DNA of 60,634 bases, from positions 1 through 60,634 of IMG/VR virus record IMGVR_UViG_3300033142_002332; one strand, written 5' to 3'. Below are positions 4,474 through 30,203 of this stretch, one piece after another. The notes beneath the pieces are model-generated. The model had not been told where the DNA came from, did no database searches, and saw only the letters and a list, made by a program, of their open reading frames with translations. The translations under genes and the position numbers were made by a program. Origin of the DNA: a virus. The stretch's first letter is position 1, and every line of letters starts with the position of its first letter.

Positions 4474-4479
4474 TATAAT
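4474..4479 (+). promoter_or_regulatory. Candidate -10 element for nrdDG
   Basis: A perfect TATAAT box follows the terminator and lies 40 bases before the chosen nrdD start. No good -35 box is visible. If it is used, transcription starts near 4486, which excludes the upstream ATG at 4478. Confidence 0.45.
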
Positions 4480-4519
4480 GAATAACAGATTGCTTAATCC
4501 AAAACAGAAAGAAAATAAA

Positions 4520-7024
4520 ATGAATAAAGAAGAGCTATTATCTTTAAAAAAAGAAGGTAAGACTAACCTAGAGTGTTCAAAGATTTTTAATGTCTGTAAA
4601 TCAACTATCTCCAATCATGTAATTTCACTAATCAATGAAGGAAGGCTAAAAAAAACAGAGATAGTTAAAAAAAAAGCTTGGAATGAAGGAACAACTAAGA
4701 ACAGGGTTAAAGTTAAGTGTTCTTATTGCAATAAAGAAAAAATAATTCATGGTTGTAGTTATAAAAGAAACGTAACAGGATTGTTTTATTGCAATCAAAC
4801 ATGCAGACAAGCTAATACTTACCAGGTTAGGACTTGTCAGTATTGTAATGATGAATATAAGGCTATTAGGGGATCAACACGTAAGTATTGTTCTCATAAA
4901 TGTTCTATGGAAAAAAAAGAACAAACGTTTAAATATGTTAAAAAAAGAGACGGAAGCATTCAAGAGTTTGATATAAATAAGATTATAAGGGCCATAGGAA
5001 GGTCTGGGAAAGAGACAGGTGAATTTGATGATGTAATTACTTCTCGTTTAGCGATTAGAGTTGTTAATCTTCTTGAGATGAATGTGTATAATTCTACGCC
5101 TGAGATAGAACAAATTCAAGATATAGTTGAAGATGTTTTATTAACCTCTCCTTTTAAAAAGACAGCTAAGTCTTATATTCTTTATCGTGAACAGCACGCT
5201 AGGTTAAGGGATTTTGCTAAGAAAGCTAATTTAGACCTGGTTGATTCATATCTTAATAACCTTGACTGGAAGGTTAAAGAGAACAGTAACATGGGTTATT
5301 CTTTACAAGGACTTAATCAGTATATTTCTAGTGAGATTAGTAAGAGCTATTGGCTAAATAAAATTTACACTAGCCAGATCCGTAATGCTCATTTGTCTGG
5401 AGATTTTCATATTCATGATTTAAATCTTCTTAGCGTTTATTGTGTTGGTTGGGATTTACAGAATCTTCTTAAAATAGGGTTTAAAGGTGTAGCTGGTAAG
5501 ATAGAAAGTAAGCCTGCTAAACACTTTCGTAGTGCTTTAGGTCAGATTGTTAATTTCTTTTATACCCTTCAAGGAGAAGCTGCAGGCGCACAAGCATTTT
5601 CAAATTTTGATACGTTATTAGCTCCTTTTATTCGATATGATGGGCTTAATGAAGAAGAAGTAGCCCAGGCAATGCAGGAGTTCATTTTTAACATCAATAT
5701 TCCTACACGAGTTGGGTTCCAAACACCTTTTACAAATATTACTCTTGATTTGCAGCCACCGTCAACATTGAAAAGCCAATCTGTTATTATTGGTGGGAAA
5801 TTACAAAAAGAAACTTATGCAGAGTTTCAAGACGAAATGCATATGTTTAACAAAACCTTTCTTAATGTAATGCAAAAAGGAGATGGAAAAGGAAGGGTAT
5901 TTACTTTCCCAATTCCAACTTATAATATTGGGTCTGATTTTGATTGGGACAGTCCTAATCTTGAAACTTTATGGGAAGTTACTGCAAAGTACGGAACACC
6001 TTATTTTGCAAATTTCATTAATTCTGATATGTCAGTTGATGATGCTCGATCCATGTGCTGTAGGTTGAGATTAGACCTACGTCATTTAGATAGAAGAGGA
6101 GGCGGCTTATTTGGAGCAAATCCTTTAACAGGATCTATAGGTGTCGTAACTATTAATATGGCAAGATTAGGGCATATTTCTAAAGACGAAAAAGAATTTA
6201 TTGAAAAACTTGATCATCTTTTGGATCTTGCAAAAGATAGCTTAGAGATTAAGAGAAGGTTGCTTGAAAGCTTTACAGATAAAAAGCTTTATCCTTATAC
6301 AAAGTATTATTTAAAAGAGATAAAGAAGCATTATAATCAGTATTGGTATAATCATTTTTCAACTATTGGGTTGATTGGAATGAATGAAGCTTGCCTTAAT
6401 TTATTTGGTAAAGACATAGGAACAAAAGAAGGCAATAAGTTTGCTGCGAAGATACTTGATCATATGAGGGATAAGCTTCTTTCTTTTCAAGAAGAAACAG
6501 GTAATATGTATAATCTTGAAGCAACTCCTGCAGAAGGAACTTCTTATCGTCTTGCTAAACTAGATAAAAAGTATTATCCAGAGATTATTTCAGCTCAACC
6601 TAAAGAAGGTTCTGGTATTAAAAGGCCTTTTTATTCTAATTCAACTCAACTTCCTGTTAATTATAGTCATGATATTTTTGATGTTCTTGATAAGCAAGAT
6701 AATTTACAAAAAAAATACACGGGAGGCACAGTACTGCATATCTTTTTGGGAGAGTCTCTTGCGCAACCTGAAAATTTAAAGAAGTTCATAAAAAAAGTGT
6801 GCGAAAACTATAATCTTCCTTATTTTACGATTACACCCACCTTTAGTATTTGTTCTGATCATGGTTATTTGAAAGGAGAGCAGCCGTTTTGTCCTGAGTG
6901 CAAAAGCAAAACAGAAATTTATTCTAGAGTTGTTGGTTATTTACGACCTGTTGATCAATGGAACGAAGGGAAGCAAGCAGAATTTCCTTTACGATCTCAT
7001 TATCAAATTGAGCATAAATCATGA
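4520..7024 (+). CDS. nrdD: Anaerobic ribonucleoside-triphosphate reductase with extra HTH/zinc N-terminus
   Basis: Class III reductase that makes deoxynucleotides without oxygen using a glycyl radical. Visible features in order: an N-terminal helix-turn-helix (~residues 1-45); two Cys-rich motifs (CSYC...CNQTC and CQYC...CSHKC, ~65-130); an ATP-cone (~135-230, YVKKRDGSIQEFDINKI); catalytic-core cysteines in SVYCVGWDL and SMCCRLRLD; and a C-terminal zinc site (ICSDHGYL...FCPEC) before the glycyl-radical loop RVVGYLRPV. The HTH/zinc segment is not part of ordinary NrdD and resembles DNA-binding parts of phage HNH/homing endonucleases. Start 4520 is preferred over in-frame 4478 because that codon overlaps the -10 box. 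It overlaps nrdG by four bases. Confidence 0.93.
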   Translation: MNKEELLSLKKEGKTNLECSKIFNVCKSTISNHVISLINEGRLKKTEIVKKKAWNEGTTKNRVKVKCSYCNKEKIIHGCSYKRNVTGLFYCNQTCRQANTYQVRTCQYCNDEYKAIRGSTRKYCSHKCSMEKKEQTFKYVKKRDGSIQEFDINKIIRAIGRSGKETGEFDDVITSRLAIRVVNLLEMNVYNSTPEIEQIQDIVEDVLLTSPFKKTAKSYILYREQHARLRDFAKKANLDLVDSYLNNLDWKVKENSNMGYSLQGLNQYISSEISKSYWLNKIYTSQIRNAHLSGDFHIHDLNLLSVYCVGWDLQNLLKIGFKGVAGKIESKPAKHFRSALGQIVNFFYTLQGEAAGAQAFSNFDTLLAPFIRYDGLNEEEVAQAMQEFIFNINIPTRVGFQTPFTNITLDLQPPSTLKSQSVIIGGKLQKETYAEFQDEMHMFNKTFLNVMQKGDGKGRVFTFPIPTYNIGSDFDWDSPNLETLWEVTAKYGTPYFANFINSDMSVDDARSMCCRLRLDLRHLDRRGGGLFGANPLTGSIGVVTINMARLGHISKDEKEFIEKLDHLLDLAKDSLEIKRRLLESFTDKKLYPYTKYYLKEIKKHYNQYWYNHFSTIGLIGMNEACLNLFGKDIGTKEGNKFAAKILDHMRDKLLSFQEETGNMYNLEATPAEGTSYRLAKLDKKYYPEIISAQPKEGSGIKRPFYSNSTQLPVNYSHDIFDVLDKQDNLQKKYTGGTVLHIFLGESLAQPENLKKFIKKVCENYNLPYFTITPTFSICSDHGYLKGEQPFCPECKSKTEIYSRVVGYLRPVDQWNEGKQAEFPLRSHYQIEHKS

Positions 7025-7614
7025 AAATAGGAGGATATCAGTCGCTTACATTGAGCGACTTTCCTGGGAATGTTGCAGCTATTGTTTTCACTCAAGGTTG
7101 CAACTTTCGTTGTCCTTTTTGTCATAATTTTGACCTTCTTGGAATTAAACCTTCTAAGAAAACATTTAATGATCAAGATATTTTTGATAACTTAAAGAGC
7201 AGGTTATTGTTATTGGATGGAGTTGTTATTACTGGAGGAGAGCCCACTTTACAAAAAGACCTATTTAGTTTTATTAGTAAAATTAAGAACATAGGTCTTA
7301 AAATTAAGCTTGATACTAACGGAAGTAACCCTAAGATAATAGAGAATCTATTAAATAACGAAAAATTAGACTATATCGCTATGGATATAAAAGCACCTTT
7401 TAGTAAGTATAATCAAGTAGCAGGCGTTGACGTTTGTATAAACAAAATTAAGAGAAGCATTGATTTGATACTTGCAAGTAAAATTTCTTATGAGTTTAGA
7501 ACTACCTTTGCAAAAGATATTTTGTCAGAAAAAGATATCTGTGAAATAAAAAAAAGCTTACCTAACGAAGCAAACTATAAGATACAAGTCTGTAAAAAAA
7601 TAAACAATTTATAA
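7021..7614 (+). CDS. nrdG: Anaerobic ribonucleotide reductase activating protein (radical SAM)
   Basis: 197 residues. The N-terminus reads GGYQSLTLSDFPGNVAAIVF followed by the radical-SAM iron-sulfur motif CNFRCPFC (Cys27, Cys31, Cys34) and the SAM-binding GGEPTLQ. The enzyme uses SAM and a 4Fe-4S cluster to make the glycyl radical on NrdD. Its ATGA start overlaps the nrdD stop, so the two are translationally coupled. All key residues are present and the length fits the pyruvate-formate-lyase-activase-like NrdG group. Confidence 0.92.
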   Translation: MKIGGYQSLTLSDFPGNVAAIVFTQGCNFRCPFCHNFDLLGIKPSKKTFNDQDIFDNLKSRLLLLDGVVITGGEPTLQKDLFSFISKIKNIGLKIKLDTNGSNPKIIENLLNNEKLDYIAMDIKAPFSKYNQVAGVDVCINKIKRSIDLILASKISYEFRTTFAKDILSEKDICEIKKSLPNEANYKIQVCKKINNL

Positions 7615-7726: not shown

Positions 7727-9091
7727 ATGGACAAAGAGAAAAAATATATTGTCTTAGTTCCAGGTCATAGTATAGAAAGTCAGAGTTTTACAATGTGGAC
7801 GAATGAATCAGAGTGGTCTTTTTGTTTTCGTGCTTGTACGTATATGAAAAATTATTTTGATATGAATTTTGAAAATGTTGAAAGTAAGGTAGTTGATAGG
7901 CATTCTACAGGGGAAGGGTATGCGAGCGAAATGGAGAAAGTGGGGAAAGAGATAAAAGGTTGGGAAAAACCTATTGATTTAATTTTTGAGCATCATGTTA
8001 ATTCCGCTAGCGGAATTGCTTTTGGTTGTGAGGGGCTTATAAATTTAGATGATAAAGTTAGTTCTTTATTTGTTGATGAGCTTACTGACGATTTTAGTAC
8101 GCAATTTTTAATTCGTGAAAGAAGAACTAAAAAACTTCCAGGTGGGGAGATACTAACTGATGGCGTTCTTTCTGTGAAACCAGGAGAGAGGGGTAGTAGC
8201 GGTTTAAAAACATATAAGGGTTGTAATTCAAAGGTATCTTTTATTTGGGAACCTTGTTTTGGGAATGAAAGAACCAAAGAATCTATTAATATTTTAAAGA
8301 ACGAAAATACGTATTTTCCTTGGATTTCTCAATATTTAGGGAATAAAGTGGGTGGTGTTTTAAAGCCTAATATAACTTTAATTGATGCGCTTAGGACTGA
8401 AAGTATTGAAATTACTACGACTCAACGAGTAGCTTCTTTAGAGCCTGACCCAATAAAGAATACTCTTTTAAGAGAGTTAATTACGGTTTATAAAAAGGCT
8501 TCTATAAAATTTAAGGCTTTGAAGGGAATTACGTTAGCCCAATGGTTATTAGAAAGTGGTAGGGCAACGAGCAAGTTAGCTGTTAATCATAATAATTTTG
8601 GAGGTTTGAAATATAGGAAAGAAATAGAAGATATTAGTGGAGAAAAAAAACGATGGTCAATTGAATATACAGGGAGTGATAATAATAAAGATAATTATTT
8701 TGCATTTAAAAGTATTGAGGAGTTTGTTGTTGGGTATTGGCTTTTTATTGGTAGGCAAAACTATAAAGGTTGGGAGCGTTACGGTAATGATCCTGTCGGA
8801 TATATGGAACATCTTTGTAAGTGTGGATATTCTGAAACACCAGACTATTTGACTCGTGTTTTGAAGCTTTTACCCGAGGCGGAAAGGTTATTATTGAGTG
8901 TTAAAACAGAGCCTTACTATAAGAAAGGGAAAGAAGAAGTTATTAAAGAAGGGGGTGAAAAAAAAGTAGGTCAAAGTTCAATTAGTTCTGGAAAATGTTC
9001 ACAAATTAAGTTACAATTTGATTATGAAGGTTCGAGAATTAATATGCTCCTTAACGGAGAGGTTTGTATATCATCAAAAAAATGTTGTTAA
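7727..9091 (+). CDS. Bifunctional endolysin: amidase_3-like plus GH73-like glucosaminidase
   Basis: Residues 1-~195 look like an N-acetylmuramoyl-L-alanine amidase: YIVLVPGHS at the start, a middle FEHHVNSASG with candidate zinc histidines, and a late acidic IWEPCFGN. Residues ~245-395 carry a glucosaminidase pattern (TLAQWLLESGRATSKLAVNHNNFGGLK, read with its catalytic Glu, then YFAFKSIEEFVVGYW). The protein would cut both the peptide linkage and the glycan backbone of peptidoglycan. There is no signal peptide, so release would depend on a holin. The C-terminal ~60 residues after position 395 are unassigned and may bind the cell wall. AAAGGGGG gives a strong ribosome site. A second lytic enzyme lies at 60131. 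Confidence 0.8.
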   Translation: MDKEKKYIVLVPGHSIESQSFTMWTNESEWSFCFRACTYMKNYFDMNFENVESKVVDRHSTGEGYASEMEKVGKEIKGWEKPIDLIFEHHVNSASGIAFGCEGLINLDDKVSSLFVDELTDDFSTQFLIRERRTKKLPGGEILTDGVLSVKPGERGSSGLKTYKGCNSKVSFIWEPCFGNERTKESINILKNENTYFPWISQYLGNKVGGVLKPNITLIDALRTESIEITTTQRVASLEPDPIKNTLLRELITVYKKASIKFKALKGITLAQWLLESGRATSKLAVNHNNFGGLKYRKEIEDISGEKKRWSIEYTGSDNNKDNYFAFKSIEEFVVGYWLFIGRQNYKGWERYGNDPVGYMEHLCKCGYSETPDYLTRVLKLLPEAERLLLSVKTEPYYKKGKEEVIKEGGEKKVGQSSISSGKCSQIKLQFDYEGSRINMLLNGEVCISSKKCC

Positions 9092-9114: not shown

Positions 9115-10392
9115 ATGAGTTTTATTTATAAAGCTAGTGTATTTTTTAGTGTTTTTTTTGTTTCTTTACGATTGAGCGGTTCTCCTGAAAATTCTTTTTC
9201 AAGATGTTTTAGAACCTTTGACCCTGGTTTGAGTGATATTAGGGGTTTTGATTTTAGCCCTCGTGGCGATTCAATTGCATTTGTTGATGGTAGAGGGAGC
9301 TTTTTATCTCGAGATAATGTCTTTTCTAGTCTTGATAATAGGAATTTTAATCGAGTTTCTGAATTTATTTTTAAGCATGGGGCTCATGATATAAAGTTTT
9401 CTCCTGATGGAAAATTCATACTAGTTTGTAATGATAGAGGATGGCTTGGTTTATTAGATAATTCAAGTTTTGAAGTTAAAAATTTTAAAGCTTGGAATGT
9501 GGACTTTAATTTAATTGATTTCAGCCCCGATGGATTTCACTTTATAGCTGGGGGGGTTGGAAGGGATGAACATTTAATATATTTATTTAATTTAGAAGGA
9601 GAGGTGATAAGGATTTTTAAGGGACATTCTGGCAAGATAACAAGGCTCAAATATAGCCCAGATGGAAAGTCTTTTATTTCTGGTAGTACAACAGGAACTA
9701 TAAATATTTGGACTGTTGACGGTGAATTATTAAAGACTGTTAATTATGTTTCGTCAGCAGTATCCTTGTTAGATTTTCCAGCAAAAATTGTTGGTTTAGA
9801 TTTTTCGTCATCAGGTAAATTTTTTATGTCTTGTGATGCTTGGGGAGAAGTCAAGCAGTGGACTTCTAGGGGTGTTTTAAGTCGCGTGTTTCAATCTGAT
9901 ATTGAGGGGGTTGATATTGCGGAATTTAATCCTAATGGACAAGACCTTCTTATGGGAGGGTCTGGAAAGGTTGAATGGTGGAGTTCAGAGGGTCATTTAA
10001 AAGAAACCTTTAATAGGTTTGCAGGCCTAGTAAAAGACTTGAATTATAGACCTGACGGAGATGGTTTTTTGGCTTTATTTGAGAGGGGCGGCGTTAAGTT
10101 TTGGTTTTTAAGACCAGCATTTCAAACAAACCCTAGTGCTATAGCTAATATTTTTCCTACTGTAGGGAAAGCCCCCTTTACAGTATTTTTAGATGGTCTT
10201 GGTTCTCATGATCTTAATGATCGTGGACACATTTTGGATCATGTTTGGAAGATCTCAGATGGTAGGGTTTTAGAGGGTGGATATCGAAAACTTAAGTTTA
10301 AAAGATCTGGTGTTTATACGGTTACTTTGACTGTAACAAATAGAAGAGGTAACAGTGAGACAAGTTTTGAAAAGTATATTTTTGTTGACTAG
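9115..10392 (+). CDS. Predicted secreted seven-bladed WD40 propeller with C-terminal PKD domain
   Basis: The N-terminus (YKASVFFSVFFVSLRLSGS) is a likely signal peptide. Seven propeller units follow, each with an F/Y-S-P-D-G-like turn: FDFSPRGDS, IKFSPDGKF, IDFSPDGFH, LKYSPDGKS, LDFSSSGKF, AEFNPNGQD and LNYRPDGDG, several ending in W (NIWTVDG, KQWTSRG, EWWSSEG). Residues ~335-425 form a PKD-like domain (PTVGKAPFTVFLDGLGSHD ... GVYTVTLTVTNRRGN). Both modules mediate protein or surface binding, so an exported or envelope role is inferred; no enzyme site is seen. It follows the endolysin by 24 bases with AGAAGGG as ribosome site and precedes two exported nuclease-like proteins. Confidence 0.8.
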   Translation: MSFIYKASVFFSVFFVSLRLSGSPENSFSRCFRTFDPGLSDIRGFDFSPRGDSIAFVDGRGSFLSRDNVFSSLDNRNFNRVSEFIFKHGAHDIKFSPDGKFILVCNDRGWLGLLDNSSFEVKNFKAWNVDFNLIDFSPDGFHFIAGGVGRDEHLIYLFNLEGEVIRIFKGHSGKITRLKYSPDGKSFISGSTTGTINIWTVDGELLKTVNYVSSAVSLLDFPAKIVGLDFSSSGKFFMSCDAWGEVKQWTSRGVLSRVFQSDIEGVDIAEFNPNGQDLLMGGSGKVEWWSSEGHLKETFNRFAGLVKDLNYRPDGDGFLALFERGGVKFWFLRPAFQTNPSAIANIFPTVGKAPFTVFLDGLGSHDLNDRGHILDHVWKISDGRVLEGGYRKLKFKRSGVYTVTLTVTNRRGNSETSFEKYIFVD

Positions 10393-10399
10393 TGAAAAA

Positions 10400-10570
10400 A
10401 TGTTTAATAATAAAAAATTACTTAAAGAAAAATTATTAAATAAATACCAAGGTATTTATTTATTGAAATGTAGTATAAAAAAGTTTAATAATAAAAAGAG
10501 TTTTTATAAAATTAGTAATGATAGTGCCAGGGTAACTATCATTAAATTGAATAAGGAAAAGTTGTTATGA
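10400..10570 (+). CDS. Possible 56-residue basic protein
   Basis: A short lysine/asparagine-rich frame that starts 8 bases after the upstream stop and ends in ATGA overlapping the next start, which favours translational coupling. Against it, there is no clear ribosome site and the same DNA holds two perfect inverted repeats (10437-10462 and 10517-10543), so it may be regulatory sequence that is open by chance. No family recognised. Confidence 0.35.
   Translation: MFNNKKLLKEKLLNKYQGIYLLKCSIKKFNNKKSFYKISNDSARVTIIKLNKEKLL
10437..10462. repeat. Perfect 12-bp inverted repeat
   Basis: TAAATAAATACC and GGTATTTATTTA face each other across two bases, giving a 26-bp palindrome between the WD40 and nuclease-like genes. 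It could be an operator or an RNA hairpin. Confidence 0.6.
10517..10543 (+). repeat. Inverted repeat upstream of nuclease-like pair
   Basis: AATGATAGT and ACTATCATT form a 9-bp stem with a 9-base loop, about 24 bases before the start at 10567. Possible RNA hairpin controlling that operon. Confidence 0.5.
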
Positions 10571-11151
10571 TATATATTGTTATACAAAGATTAGTTATTT
10601 TATGTTTATTAGCTCAAGGGTTGGTTGTTACGGGCAGTGCTTCAGAAAAACATTTAAGGTTTTTAAGTCGTAATAAGCAAAAGTGCATTCATAGTGCCAA
10701 AGCTTATAGGTGCGTTGAATACGTTAGTAATAAAAGCGGAAATACGGTTAAATTTAATATACATGGCATAGGGGATAGGCTAACCGTTCATTTAACAGGA
10801 ATAGAAACCCCAAAGATAAAACCTAATCGTAAACAATCTAAAAAGTCTGAAAAATGTGAGATATCTAGGGCTAGAGATTTAAGCTATCTTGTTTCAGATT
10901 TGCTTAATAATGCTAGAGAGATTCACCTTATTGGACCTAAAAGGAGAAAGGGTAAAGCTTATATTTCTGATATTGTTTTTGATAGAAAAAGTCTAGTAGC
11001 TTTACTATTGATGCATGAATATGGTTTTATATCTAATAATAAAGATATAAATTGGTGTACTAAGCCTGAAAAAATTACTTATGGAAATAGTGTTTTTTTT
11101 GAATCTAAAAAGGAAAAACGTAGTAAAAAAGAATTAAAAAGCAACACATAA
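10567..11151 (+). CDS. Predicted exported thermonuclease-like protein, catalytically degenerate
   Basis: A hydrophobic N-terminus (VIQRLVILCLLAQGLVVTGSAS) suggests export. The fold region aligns with the intact paralogue at 11172, but the staphylococcal-nuclease active residues are changed: DGDT is SGNT (57-60), RLFGIDTPE is HLTGIETPK (75-83), and the second arginine (FRIV) is replaced near residue 133. Cysteines shared with the paralogue (KC...YRCVEYV and NWC) suggest the same disulfides. It is therefore probably a binding-only pseudonuclease, perhaps an inhibitor or partner of its neighbour; that role is inference. AAGGA precedes the start, and the genes are 20 bases apart. Confidence 0.75.
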   Translation: MIYIVIQRLVILCLLAQGLVVTGSASEKHLRFLSRNKQKCIHSAKAYRCVEYVSNKSGNTVKFNIHGIGDRLTVHLTGIETPKIKPNRKQSKKSEKCEISRARDLSYLVSDLLNNAREIHLIGPKRRKGKAYISDIVFDRKSLVALLLMHEYGFISNNKDINWCTKPEKITYGNSVFFESKKEKRSKKELKSNT

Positions 11152-11171: not shown

Positions 11172-11741
11172 ATGAACTATAGCAGCTTAAAAAGAAAATT
11201 AGTTAATATATTATGTATATTGTTTTTAGTTATGTTAGTTACAGGTATATCTAAAAAAAGCGGTTACTTAAAGAGCAATAATGGTTCATGTGAACATGAT
11301 ATTGTTGGATTTAGATGCGTTGAATATGTTAAAAATTATGACGGTGACACGATCACTTTTAATATAAAAGGAGTCCATCCCATTATAGGTAAGAGAATAT
11401 CAGTCCGTCTATTTGGTATTGATACACCTGAGATGCGTCCTAAACGTAAACAATCTAAAGAGTCTAAGGCTTGTGAAAAAGCTAAGGCAAGGGAAGTAAA
11501 GGATTATGTTGCTGGCATTCTTAAGAATGCTGATAGAATTGATATTGTTGATCCTCAAAGAGGCAAATATTTTAGAATTGTGGGGTCTATAGTAGTTGAC
11601 GGAAAAGATTTAACTTTTTTATTATTGAATAAAGGGTACGGATATTCTTATTTAGGTGGTGCTAAAGAGAAGATAGACTGGTGTTTATATTCAAAAAAGA
11701 ATATAAACAAAAAGGTCTCTTTAGTTTTTTATAACAGTTAG
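11172..11741 (+). CDS. Exported thermonuclease (SNase family)
   Basis: Residues 1-~26 form a signal peptide or membrane anchor (ILCILFLVMLVTG). The nuclease core has the family's key positions: Asp57/Asp59 in DGDT, Arg79, Asp84 and Glu87 in RLFGIDTPE, and Arg125 in YFRIV. This family cuts DNA and RNA in a calcium-dependent way. Conserved cysteines (SC, FRCVEYV, DWC) point to action outside the cytoplasm. Possible roles are degrading competing DNA, scavenging host DNA on lysis, or blocking superinfecting DNA in the periplasm; the sequence does not choose among these. It lies last in the rightward endolysin-propeller-nuclease series. Confidence 0.85.
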   Translation: MNYSSLKRKLVNILCILFLVMLVTGISKKSGYLKSNNGSCEHDIVGFRCVEYVKNYDGDTITFNIKGVHPIIGKRISVRLFGIDTPEMRPKRKQSKESKACEKAKAREVKDYVAGILKNADRIDIVDPQRGKYFRIVGSIVVDGKDLTFLLLNKGYGYSYLGGAKEKIDWCLYSKKNINKKVSLVFYNS

Positions 11742-11761: not shown

Positions 11762-12103
11762 TTAACATCCTGTGATATTAATTGTTGAATCTACGCCTAG
11801 TTTTTCAGTGCAAGTATCTATAATTCTATATGTATTATGAGTTTTCTTATATTCCATATATGTATCTTTCAACTCGGAATTTGTTCGATCTTCATAAAGA
11901 TCTAAAAAGAAAATATTTATGCCTATTAAACATAAAGAAAACATCATAGTGCTAGCTGCAACATTCTCTGTTACGTGTTTAGTTAAAAACATTGAACCTA
12001 TAAATGCCACTAAACTAAAAATAATCGATATTCCTAGCTTAAATCTTGTTTTGCCTACTTCTTCTATTCTTTTGATAAATTGCTTTTGTAATTCTATTCT
12101 CAT
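11762..12103 (-). CDS. Small two-helix membrane protein
   Basis: About 113 residues: a charged N-terminal helix (IELQKQFIKRIEEVGKTRF), two hydrophobic segments (LGISIIFSLVAFIGSMFL and ASTMMFSLCLIGINIFFL) and a polar C-terminus with two cysteines. The start at 12103 is preceded by GGAAC; the same frame runs further upstream through three 39-bp repeats that are read here as leader copies. It is the second gene of a leftward pair controlled by the promoter repeats at 12.6-12.8 kb. Function unknown; membrane role (holin-like, exclusion or signalling) is only a guess. Confidence 0.6.
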   Translation of the reverse strand: MRIELQKQFIKRIEEVGKTRFKLGISIIFSLVAFIGSMFLTKHVTENVAASTMMFSLCLIGINIFFLDLYEDRTNSELKDTYMEYKKTHNTYRIIDTCTEKLGVDSTINITGC

Positions 12104-12133
12104 GTTAGTTCCTTCGTTGTTTTGTTTTTGATT

Positions 12134-12250
12134 GTTTGTTGTTTTGTTATTCATTTTGTTTTTTCTTTCTTTGTTTGTTGTTTTGTTATTCATTTTGTTT
12201 TTTCTTTCTTTGTTTGTTGTTTTGTTATTCATTTTGTTTTTTCTTTCTTT
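12134..12250 (-). repeat. Three perfect 39-bp tandem leader repeats
   Basis: Three identical 39-bp units at 12134, 12173 and 12212. On the minus strand each contains an A-rich ribosome-site-like AAAGAAAG, an ATG and codons for NNKTTNK. A fourth near-identical copy (one base different) is at 12567-12605, upstream of the other leftward gene. They look like duplicated translation start regions rather than coding sequence. Confidence 0.8.
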
Positions 12251-14360: not shown

Positions 14361-14449
14361 AATAAAAAAAGTTTAAAATTTTACTTGACAAACTTTTTTA
14401 ATAATGTATATTAGAAATATGAATAACGAAACAAACAAAAGGAAAAATA
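14361..14449 (+). promoter_or_regulatory. Promoter/operator/leader repeat, copy D (drives cheB-like gene)
   Basis: -35 TTGACA 14385-14390, 16-base spacer, -10 TATATT 14407-14412, ATG 14419 seven bases on, and the same inverted repeat as the other copies. A one-base loss compared with copy C puts the leader ATG in frame with the gene downstream. Confidence 0.85.
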
Positions 14450-14454
14450 AAAAA

Positions 14455-15024
14455 ATGAATAAAATTATTGCCATAGGGTCATCAACTGGTGGAATAGCTG
14501 CTCTTACAGACTTATTAAAAAACCTTCCTACAGAAATACCTCCAGTTGTTATAGTACAGCACATACCTAAAGTGTTTTCTTTAAGTTTTGCAAACAGTCT
14601 TAATAAAATGTGTCCTTTTAAAGTAAAAGAAGCAGAAGACGGAGACGTTTTAAAAAAGAACACTGTTTATATAGCTCCAGGAGGAAAACAAACAAGAATT
14701 AGAAAAAGAGGATCCGACTTTGTTATTCTTGTAGTTGATGAAGAGCCTCATAATCATCATCGACCTAGCGTTGATATATTGTTTGACTCTGTAGCAAGGT
14801 ACATAAAAAATAGAGCAATTGGAGTTGTTTTAACAGGAATGGGAAAAGATGGAGCCAAAGGCCTTCTTAATATGAAAAAAGAAGGAGCCCTAACTATTGC
14901 TCAGGACGAAAAAACATCAGTGGTTTTTGGAATGCCAAAATCAGCTATAGCGATAGGTGGTGTCTCAAAGGTCTTACCTTTACAGCGTATTCCAAAACAG
15001 CTGATGGATTGGGTTAATTTATAA
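14455..15024 (+). CDS. cheB: Free-standing CheB-type methylesterase/deamidase domain
   Basis: 189 residues that cover only the catalytic half of CheB, which removes methyl groups from chemoreceptor glutamates. The triad is intact: Ser10 in IGSSTGG, His36 in VIVQHIP and Asp132 in TGMGKDGA; the HHRPSVDILFDSVA and QDEKTSVVFGMPKSAI segments also match the family. The phosphorylated receiver domain that normally holds CheB in check is missing, so the enzyme would be always active. An in-frame ATG at 14419 belongs to the repeat leader; AAAGGAAAA supports 14455. It probably alters host chemotaxis or adaptation (inference). Confidence 0.9.
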   Translation: MNKIIAIGSSTGGIAALTDLLKNLPTEIPPVVIVQHIPKVFSLSFANSLNKMCPFKVKEAEDGDVLKKNTVYIAPGGKQTRIRKRGSDFVILVVDEEPHNHHRPSVDILFDSVARYIKNRAIGVVLTGMGKDGAKGLLNMKKEGALTIAQDEKTSVVFGMPKSAIAIGGVSKVLPLQRIPKQLMDWVNL

Positions 15025-28118: not shown

Positions 28119-30203
28119 ATGGCAATTAAGATAGGCTTTAATGGAGCTAGTATTAATAAACCAGGAGCATATAGCGCTCTTAAAATATCACCTTTATCAG
28201 GATTTCCTTTAACTCCTACAGGAATAATAGGAATAGTAGGGCCAGCTGACGGAGGCGCTCCTGGTTTTTCTGGTCCTTTTTCTCAAGACAGTATACAAAC
28301 AGCTAAACAATCTTATGAGAGTGGCCCTATTGCTGATGCTATAGATTTACTTGTAAATCCAAGTAATGATGAAAGGATTGTTAATGGTGCTTCTACAATT
28401 TATATTTATAAAGTAAACAATTCAACTCAATCTACATTAGATCTTGCGAGTTCATGGGGGACTTTTACATCTAAAAAATATGGGTTAAGCGCTAATCAAG
28501 TAAATTCTAAAATAGAAACCGCCCAGGCAGAAGTTAACCCTACTTTTTCTTTTACTTATGTGGCTCCTAGCACTGATGCTACTTTTGGCGCTAGAGTAAA
28601 CGGAGGTGCACAGGTAAATGTTAGTATTGTTTCAAGTGATATTGCATCAGCAGCTGCAACTAAAATAGATGGCTTAACTGGATTAACTGCAACAGAAGAT
28701 AGTGGAATTATAACAGTTACTCTTACAAATAGCTCAGCAAGTGGTCTTGGGCTATCTCTTGAGATTTATGATGGTGTAGGAACAGATGATTTGACAGATA
28801 TAGGCATTTCTGCAGGAGATATCGGAATTGTTCACTCAAGTACAGCAGAAGAACAAGTACAATATACTTTAAATCATGTTAATGAAGAAGAAGAGGTATC
28901 TGAGGCCTTGGGTGGTACTTTTGGCATGTATCTTGGTTATGATGGCACTACTGGAACAGTAACGGTTTCTGATACTCAACTAACTACAACTGTTGTAGGA
29001 GGATTAGGGGCAAATTTAACGATAAATTTTGCTGATTATAATAATTTGCAAGAAGTTATTTTCTATATAGATACTCAGACGGGATATAGCTGTTCAACTG
29101 ACTATGTTTCTGCCTCTGTAGTTCAGCCTACTGTTCTTGATAATGTAACATCAGCTGGAATTTGTTCTGAAGCAGTTGACATAAAACCAGGAAAAATTAA
29201 AATCGATAGTTATGAATTTAGTTCTTATGTAAATGATAATTCTAACCTTTCTACCTGCGTAGAAACATTGAAATTAGGGTTACCTGATGCTTTAACAATA
29301 ACTTACTTCACTGGTGGTATTCTTGGAACATCTGCAAATAGCAATTTTCAAGCAGGATTTGATAAACTTAAACTGTTAAGGATAAACTCAGTAATACCTT
29401 TAATTGCTAAAGATGGATCTTCTGAAGGTTACGGGACTTATGATTGGGATACTGTAGCAGCACAACTCTTAACTCACGTTAAATGGGGATGGAGTACGAT
29501 AGGAAAAAGTGAAAGAAACGGTTATATAGGTAAAGAAGGAACTAAAGATGAACTTATAACAACTGCTAAGACATTAAATTCTGGTTATCTAAGTGTTACT
29601 GGACAAGAAGCTAAAAGAGTTAATTCTGCAGGCAATTTGGTCTTTTTGCCAGAATGGTCTAGCGCATGTCTTGTAGCTGGAATGCAAGCAGGATCTGAGA
29701 CAGGAGAGCCTCCTACATATAAGTATGTTAACGCGTCAGGAATCCAACAAGATGCTTCTTGGGACCCTAAACTAGATTTTTCAGAATTAATAGACGGTGG
29801 AATTACCTTTATTGAAAATGTAGATAGTGGTGGTTATAGGATTGTTGTCGGTAATACAACTTACGGTAAAGATAGCAATTTTGTTTGGAATAGAATATCT
29901 GTAGTTGAGGTTGGGGGCTATGTTTCTTATGATTTAAGGACTGCTCTTGAAAATGAGTTTACAGGAACAAAAGCAAAAACAGGTACTGCTACGGCTATAC
30001 TTAATTTTATTAAAGCTAGGATGACTCAATATCTTAATAGTAATATCATTGTTGCAGATGATGACGCTCCTCTTGGCTATGAAAATCTTAGTGTAGTAGT
30101 TAATGGCAATACTGCGGTCATTAACTCAACAATATTCCCAGTTCAAGGAATAGACTTTATTTTACCCACGTTCTATCTTGATTCTGCCGTTCAAACTGCT
30201 TAA
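28119..30203 (+). CDS. Contractile tail sheath protein
   Basis: 694 residues. The N-terminus (INKPGAYSALKISPLSGFPLTPTGIIGIVGPADGG) is typical of contractile tail sheaths, and the C-terminal region (ISVVEVGGYVSYDLRTALENEF, YLNSNIIVADDDAPLGYENL, then VQGIDFILPTFYLD) carries the conserved C-terminal sheath domain. Residues ~135-340 hold inserted beta domains, so it is larger than minimal sheaths. This protein defines the phage as a myovirus. A terminator follows. Confidence 0.88.
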   Translation: MAIKIGFNGASINKPGAYSALKISPLSGFPLTPTGIIGIVGPADGGAPGFSGPFSQDSIQTAKQSYESGPIADAIDLLVNPSNDERIVNGASTIYIYKVNNSTQSTLDLASSWGTFTSKKYGLSANQVNSKIETAQAEVNPTFSFTYVAPSTDATFGARVNGGAQVNVSIVSSDIASAAATKIDGLTGLTATEDSGIITVTLTNSSASGLGLSLEIYDGVGTDDLTDIGISAGDIGIVHSSTAEEQVQYTLNHVNEEEEVSEALGGTFGMYLGYDGTTGTVTVSDTQLTTTVVGGLGANLTINFADYNNLQEVIFYIDTQTGYSCSTDYVSASVVQPTVLDNVTSAGICSEAVDIKPGKIKIDSYEFSSYVNDNSNLSTCVETLKLGLPDALTITYFTGGILGTSANSNFQAGFDKLKLLRINSVIPLIAKDGSSEGYGTYDWDTVAAQLLTHVKWGWSTIGKSERNGYIGKEGTKDELITTAKTLNSGYLSVTGQEAKRVNSAGNLVFLPEWSSACLVAGMQAGSETGEPPTYKYVNASGIQQDASWDPKLDFSELIDGGITFIENVDSGGYRIVVGNTTYGKDSNFVWNRISVVEVGGYVSYDLRTALENEFTGTKAKTGTATAILNFIKARMTQYLNSNIIVADDDAPLGYENLSVVVNGNTAVINSTIFPVQGIDFILPTFYLDSAVQTA

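Follow-up and report, generated by a model that had tools for sequence, protein, structure and literature searches.

A WD40-PKD protein with a signal-like N-terminus beside a nuclease-like gene pair in an SPO1-like phage: a putative exported envelope cassette, possibly serving superinfection exclusion

What use could a tailed phage have for a propeller protein that carries an export-like signal? The question is raised by one gene in a stretch of viral DNA of 60,634 bases (IMG/VR record IMGVR_UViG_3300033142_002332, which may be a fragment; analysed whole and called the window below), for which the initial annotation had described a secreted seven-bladed WD40-PKD protein that could act in the periplasm or on the cell surface. 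That observation is confirmed here, and the interpretation given with it is partly supported. Judged from its gene content, the carrier is a large tailed phage, an SPO1-like myovirus with genes for a head protease, a major head protein, a sheath and a baseplate, and no integrase was identified among the annotated ORFs of the contig. The major head protein matches phrog_752 (1.2e-71), shares ~33-34% identity with that of SPO1 and is 46% identical to its counterparts in three IMG/VR contigs. The sheath gene (28119-30203) matches phrog_279 (4.4e-52), and the best full-length match of its product is from Myxococcus phage Mx1 (29%); in this the sheath differs from the head protein, whose best hits are from Bacillus phages.

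The WD40-PKD gene occupies positions 9115-10392 of the plus strand, exactly as annotated, running from an ATG to a stop codon that ends at 10392 and encoding 425 amino acids; the motif AGAAGGG lies upstream, 7 bases from the ATG. Its domains and neighbours are collected in Table 1. In Pfam, the WD40 family (PF00400) scores 67 bits against a curated cut-off of 27, and two PKD families also exceed theirs, namely PKD_4 (PF18911; 33.6 bits, cut-off 27) and PKD (PF00801; 31.8 bits, cut-off 23.5), with PKD_4 recovered at 2.0e-9 when the C-terminal part is searched alone. The PKD domain claimed by the initial annotation is thus borne out, and its assignment rests on Pfam because this part of the protein is poorly modelled by AlphaFold2 (pLDDT about 36-64). 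Pfam revealed no catalytic domain in the protein, and its three cysteines (residues 31, 105 and 240) form no obvious disulphide pair.

Table 1. Features of the WD40-PKD gene and of the adjoining same-strand genes, with the evidence for each
Feature	Positions	Strand	Evidence
Endolysin, glucosaminidase domain C-terminal	7727..9091	+	PF01832 1.2e-15; phrog_3513 endolysin 3.5e-14
WD40-PKD protein, signal-peptide-like N-terminus (residues 1-22)	9115..9180	+	Hydropathy scan, sequence; cleavage site by eye, weak
WD40-PKD protein, predicted seven-bladed WD40 propeller (residues 30-333)	9202..10113	+	Pfam PF00400, repeat profile, AF2 model, Foldseek/VIA
WD40-PKD protein, PKD domain (residues 344-425)	10144..10389	+	PF18911 and PF00801 above cut-off
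Small basic ORF, 56 aa from ATG	10400..10570	+	Sequence; stop overlaps next start (ATGA)
Degenerate SNase-like paralogue, signal-like N-terminus	10567..11151	+	41% identity to next gene; motif residues lost
SNase (thermonuclease-like), signal-like N-terminus	11172..11741	+	PF00565 26.6 bits (cut-off 21); phrog_452 endonuclease 8.6e-15

WD40 repeats carry a signature of GH and WD dipeptides that is known to be loose, and the propeller contains one GH in a repeat position (FKGHSGK), another in EGHLKE and no WD dipeptide. With a position profile built from the WD40 repeats of other viral contigs, repeat cores were located at residues 41, 89, 130, 174, 224, 265 and 305, spaced by 40-50 residues, and their summed score was -12, as compared with a mean of -219 and a best value of -157 in 2,000 shuffles. 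Taken singly, five of the seven cores pass the 99th percentile of best shuffle hits, with 174 and 89 the strongest, and the two weakest, at 41 and 305, fall short of it; a HMMER model of similar repeats recovered only three clear repeats. Since single blades vary, the count of seven is based on periodicity and the structural model. From the sequence alone, AlphaFold2 gave a poor model (pLDDT 44.6). A second model, computed from a 12-sequence alignment that included 11 WD40 sequences from viral contigs, gave pLDDT 84-97 for most of the propeller, with weaker loops around residues 61-80 and 211-220, and closed the ring with the strand of residues 31-35. The predicted model matched seven-bladed WD40 structures, also by Foldseek, and its best solved counterparts are 5yzv, a prokaryotic WD40 domain from Thermomonospora curvata that forms part of a kinase, and seven-bladed designer propellers (7big), with Z 37.8-38.1 and 1.8 A over 281-284 residues. 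The propeller is therefore predicted to be closed and seven-bladed, in agreement with the complete seven-unit propeller of the initial annotation; the fold shared with 5yzv and 7big says nothing on function.

Whether the protein leaves the cytoplasm has to be judged mainly from its N-terminus, in which K6 is followed by hydrophobic residues 7-18, the 11-residue hydropathy reaches 2.29 and the net charge before the peak is +1. Past residue 30, no 19-residue stretch exceeds a hydropathy of 1.18 and none resembles a membrane helix. Sites of signal peptidase cleavage follow the (-3,-1) rule. The signal peptide that had been proposed earlier stands as far as composition is concerned, whereas its candidate cleavage site, G22/S23, is weak by eye, with L at -3 and G at -1. 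A hydropathy scan covered 59 ORFs of the plus strand, among them few of those shorter than 90 aa. Five of the 59 had an N-terminal 11-residue mean hydropathy above 2.0, and a net-positive n-region was present in only three of these five, the ORFs starting at 9115, 10567 (hydropathy 2.59) and 11172. The three are successive, with one small ORF in between; three ORFs placed randomly among 59 are consecutive in 57 of 32,509 arrangements, a descriptive figure, as the thresholds were set after seeing the data. Because both nuclease-like ORFs of the run have signal-like N-termini, the export reading of the WD40-PKD protein is strengthened, and from these N-termini we infer that it would be exported to the periplasm or the cell surface, as the initial annotation had suggested.

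An exported protein of the infected cell has to be set against a component of the particle, i.e., a structural adhesin of the virion that binds a receptor or matrix. WD40 propellers do occur in two tail-fibre-like phage proteins from viral contigs, L078 and L069, of which the former has a weak match to the PF07484 collar family and one to phrog_33244 (tail fiber, 1.5e-7), and the latter matched only PHROGs of unknown function and has a collar-like look by eye. In addition, a WD40 probe hits a gene of 5.2 kb in Salicola phage SCTP-2, and there are papers that name PKD domains alongside phage tail fibres. However, L078 and L069 have N-terminal parts unlike that of the WD40-PKD protein and no PKD domain among their matches, and the WD40-PKD protein itself matched no tail family in PHROGs at E up to 1, its only hit being phrog_19311 (0.064, unknown function). 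Its signal-like N-terminus also speaks against a virion part, as none was found in the region of the tail genes, among the scanned ORFs that start at 28119 or later, and the gene has the endolysin as its neighbour and is distant from those for sheath and baseplate, at 28-60 kb. The adhesin explanation was ranked third and appears improbable.

The neighbours of the gene form a compact same-strand run, in which the endolysin, WD40-PKD, the small ORF, the nuclease-like paralogue and the nuclease are separated by 23 bases, 7 bases, an ATGA overlap and 20 bases, respectively. Co-transcription of the run is suggested by this spacing; a scan for consensus promoters was uninformative (39 versus 30, sd 6, in shuffles; terminators, 4 versus 2.6), and nothing notable was found in the structure after 11741 (z -0.15). 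The last gene of the run keeps DGDT, VRLFGIDTPE and the arginine of RGKYFRIV, in motif columns that we take to be catalytic by comparison with staphylococcal nuclease, and its catalytic motifs look intact. At the corresponding motifs the paralogue reads SGNT, VHLTGIETPK and RRKGKAYI, and of the two only the last gene of the run is detected as SNase by Pfam. With most catalytic-motif residues replaced, the paralogue looks like a natural dead nuclease; a search for it in viral contigs gave 8 pattern stretches, none of which was confirmed. Behind the run, a minus-strand ORF (11762-12232) opens with a small tandem repeat, two full copies of the peptide MNNKTTNKERKNK and part of a third.

The position of the endolysin, 23 bases ahead of WD40-PKD, invites an explanation in which the exported proteins would be made late and join it in lysis or release: the SNase would digest host or extracellular DNA at lysis, and the propeller with its PKD domain would help virions to disperse by loosening or holding polymers of the envelope or matrix. 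PKD domains are common in secreted polymer-binding proteins, which counts in favour of such a role, and another viral contig has a comparable arrangement, a lysozyme-like ORF (by eye) overlapping an SNase-like ORF directly behind it (L006:5466-6369), which echoes the endolysin-nuclease neighbourhood of the window. Adjacency in two contigs is nevertheless weak evidence, the related nuclease of Sulfurimonas phage SNW-1 is located elsewhere, and the propeller protein has no catalytic domain that Pfam could see. Aid in lysis or release was placed second on account of the endolysin neighbour and the similar adjacency in the second contig, and it is rather unlikely.

The propeller together with an export-like signal, in a gene that adjoins two others with apparently exported, nuclease-like products, makes it probable that the WD40-PKD protein acts in or on the host envelope during infection. 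Three neighbouring products that all seem to be exported, one of them an intact-looking nuclease, fit a cell-envelope function. Tentatively, we favour the possibility that WD40-PKD and the SNase pair form an envelope cassette of exported products, whose likeliest purpose would be superinfection exclusion. Located behind the endolysin in what would be an accessory stretch, WD40-PKD would head the exported set, followed by the dead and then the live SNase. We infer that it would be an exported binding protein, reaching the periplasm or the surface of the infected cell through Sec, that its propeller and PKD domain would bind an envelope protein or glycan needed by incoming phages, and that the exported SNase would cut DNA crossing the envelope, the two jointly excluding competing phages during infection. 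Exclusion was ranked first because it explains the pairing of a binding module with a nuclease outside the cytoplasm, and because it has the closest precedent, that of Thermus phage Tsatsa. PADLOC gave no convincing defence match, with weak hits only to PDLC02919 (0.0017) for WD40-PKD and PDLC01096 (1.6e-4) for the SNase. A more specific version, in which the propeller holds the live nuclease where DNA enters, and the dead paralogue attaches to DNA or to the active enzyme so as to tune that enzyme or protect the producer, is quite improbable as it stands; if true, it would represent a superinfection-exclusion system that acts outside the cytoplasm by means of a nuclease, and no description of such a system was found in the portions of the literature searched. 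To our knowledge, exported effectors of phages that have a clear binding fold are few in number. If the cassette does exclude phages outside the cytoplasm, it would offer a directly testable system of three exported proteins, with an intact-motif nuclease and a natural dead control.

Gene 36 of phage Tsatsa (XKB89983.1) is named a 'WD40 periplasmic protein'; its authors predict a signal peptide, describe six WD40-like repeats and hypothesise superinfection exclusion for the set of exported proteins of the phage (PMC11437467). Gene 36 and WD40-PKD have in common that they are phage genes whose products combine a predicted or signal-like N-terminus with beta-propeller repeats, and their sequences align at 23% identity across 155 aa (E 4e-4). 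The Tsatsa protein is shorter (314 aa versus 425 aa), its repeats belong to the TolB-type PD40 family (PF07676; 110.5 bits, six stretches) rather than to PF00400, and no PKD domain is among its 7 Pfam hits; PD40 was absent among the best 25 of 34 and the best 25 of 33 Pfam families for WD40-PKD. Gene 36 also belongs to a lysogeny region that includes LexA and integrase, whereas WD40-PKD lies beside an endolysin. Since the Tsatsa repeats are PD40 and not PF00400, the precedent is an analogue. Two single-propeller WD40 proteins of about 350 aa from viral contigs, L082 and L016, have hydrophobic N-termini by eye, look exported and align with the WD40-PKD protein at 26% and 16% identity, respectively; L016, from a putatively viral contig of 8.5 kb, has no PKD domain among the best 25 of its 32 Pfam matches.

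The initial annotation had called such a gene very unusual for a phage, and the rarity of WD40 propellers in isolated phages is real: among 50,697 phage records, the WD40-PKD protein had no tblastn match at E 0.01, and a canonical WD40 probe (L082) matched a single record, that of Salicola phage SCTP-2. The wording is nevertheless overstated in view of Tsatsa gene 36, L078 and L069, and an exported phage propeller is rare yet with precedent, in Tsatsa. Viral structure models count against rarity as well, as a fold search of a viral structure library with an E limit of 0.001 returned 323 matches, and the best 50 of them include proteins of uncultured Caudovirales named as WD40/YVTN or propeller proteins and many giant-virus proteins. 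In viral contigs, an FSPDGK-type pattern gave 71 stretches, and blastp linked 6 of the 71 to WD40-PKD at E < 1e-3 (one more at 0.001), a count that is too low, as it misses L069 (E 0.18), which Pfam identifies as a WD40 protein. A stricter WD40 DNA pattern gave 8 stretches among ~2.9 million viral contigs and matched the window once; both patterns miss many repeats and are rough measures of rarity.

Is the gene then simply a passenger, i.e., a captured host gene with no role in the phage? Searches for close homologues gave 5 and 7 pattern stretches in viral and genome contigs, respectively, with none confirmed. Among plasmids, 168 records matched, all below 60% identity, and the best 30 of the 168 (23-29%) were mostly cyanobacterial WD40 proteins; being so distant, these point to no donor. 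Short WD40 matches were found in 2 of 24 genomes from the phylum of the Nitrospinota locus at E 1e-8, and none of 398 genomes from the phylum of a Mariprofundus locus matched at the strict E of 1e-20. Four contig records, of which three have a related MCP and one a related SNase, gave no match to WD40-PKD or to the endolysin, although these records may be fragments and an empty result of this search shows nothing unless a positive control accompanies it. The lack of a WD40-PKD match in all three related-MCP records suggests that the gene was gained or lost within the group, which would suit a passenger and is also expected of an accessory gene. However, its base composition (GC 0.352, GC3 0.224) is within the range of the other genes of the phage (mean GC 0.315, sd 0.034) and lends no support to recent import, and the frame is intact and tightly packed. 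A passenger gene is highly unlikely.

It is also conceivable that the exported protein alters the host surface for purposes other than phage entry, e.g., aggregation, motility or nutrient capture, through envelope remodelling or cell-cell contact. A propeller with a PKD domain is a generic binding architecture, and the stand-alone CheB gene of the window (14404-15024) would fit a wider behavioural control. No adhesion partner is known, however, and CheB lies ~2.7 kb beyond the run, past two minus-strand ORFs, and has no tie to WD40-PKD; remodelling of this kind is quite unlikely compared with the favoured exclusion of competing phages. The CheB product is a methylesterase domain (PF01339, 7.3e-66) that lacks a receiver domain, is 51% identical to the CheB of a Nitrospinota MAG and has matches in only 4 of the 50,697 phage records.

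Upstream of the endolysin lie NrdD (4478-7024) and a short ORF (7021-7614) that is NrdG-like by eye. The presence of NrdD hints at an anaerobic host. The N-terminus of NrdD extends ~150 residues beyond the part matched as reductase; by eye, this extension shows pairs of cysteines and a helix-turn-helix-like segment, looking as if a homing-type protein had been fused to the reductase.
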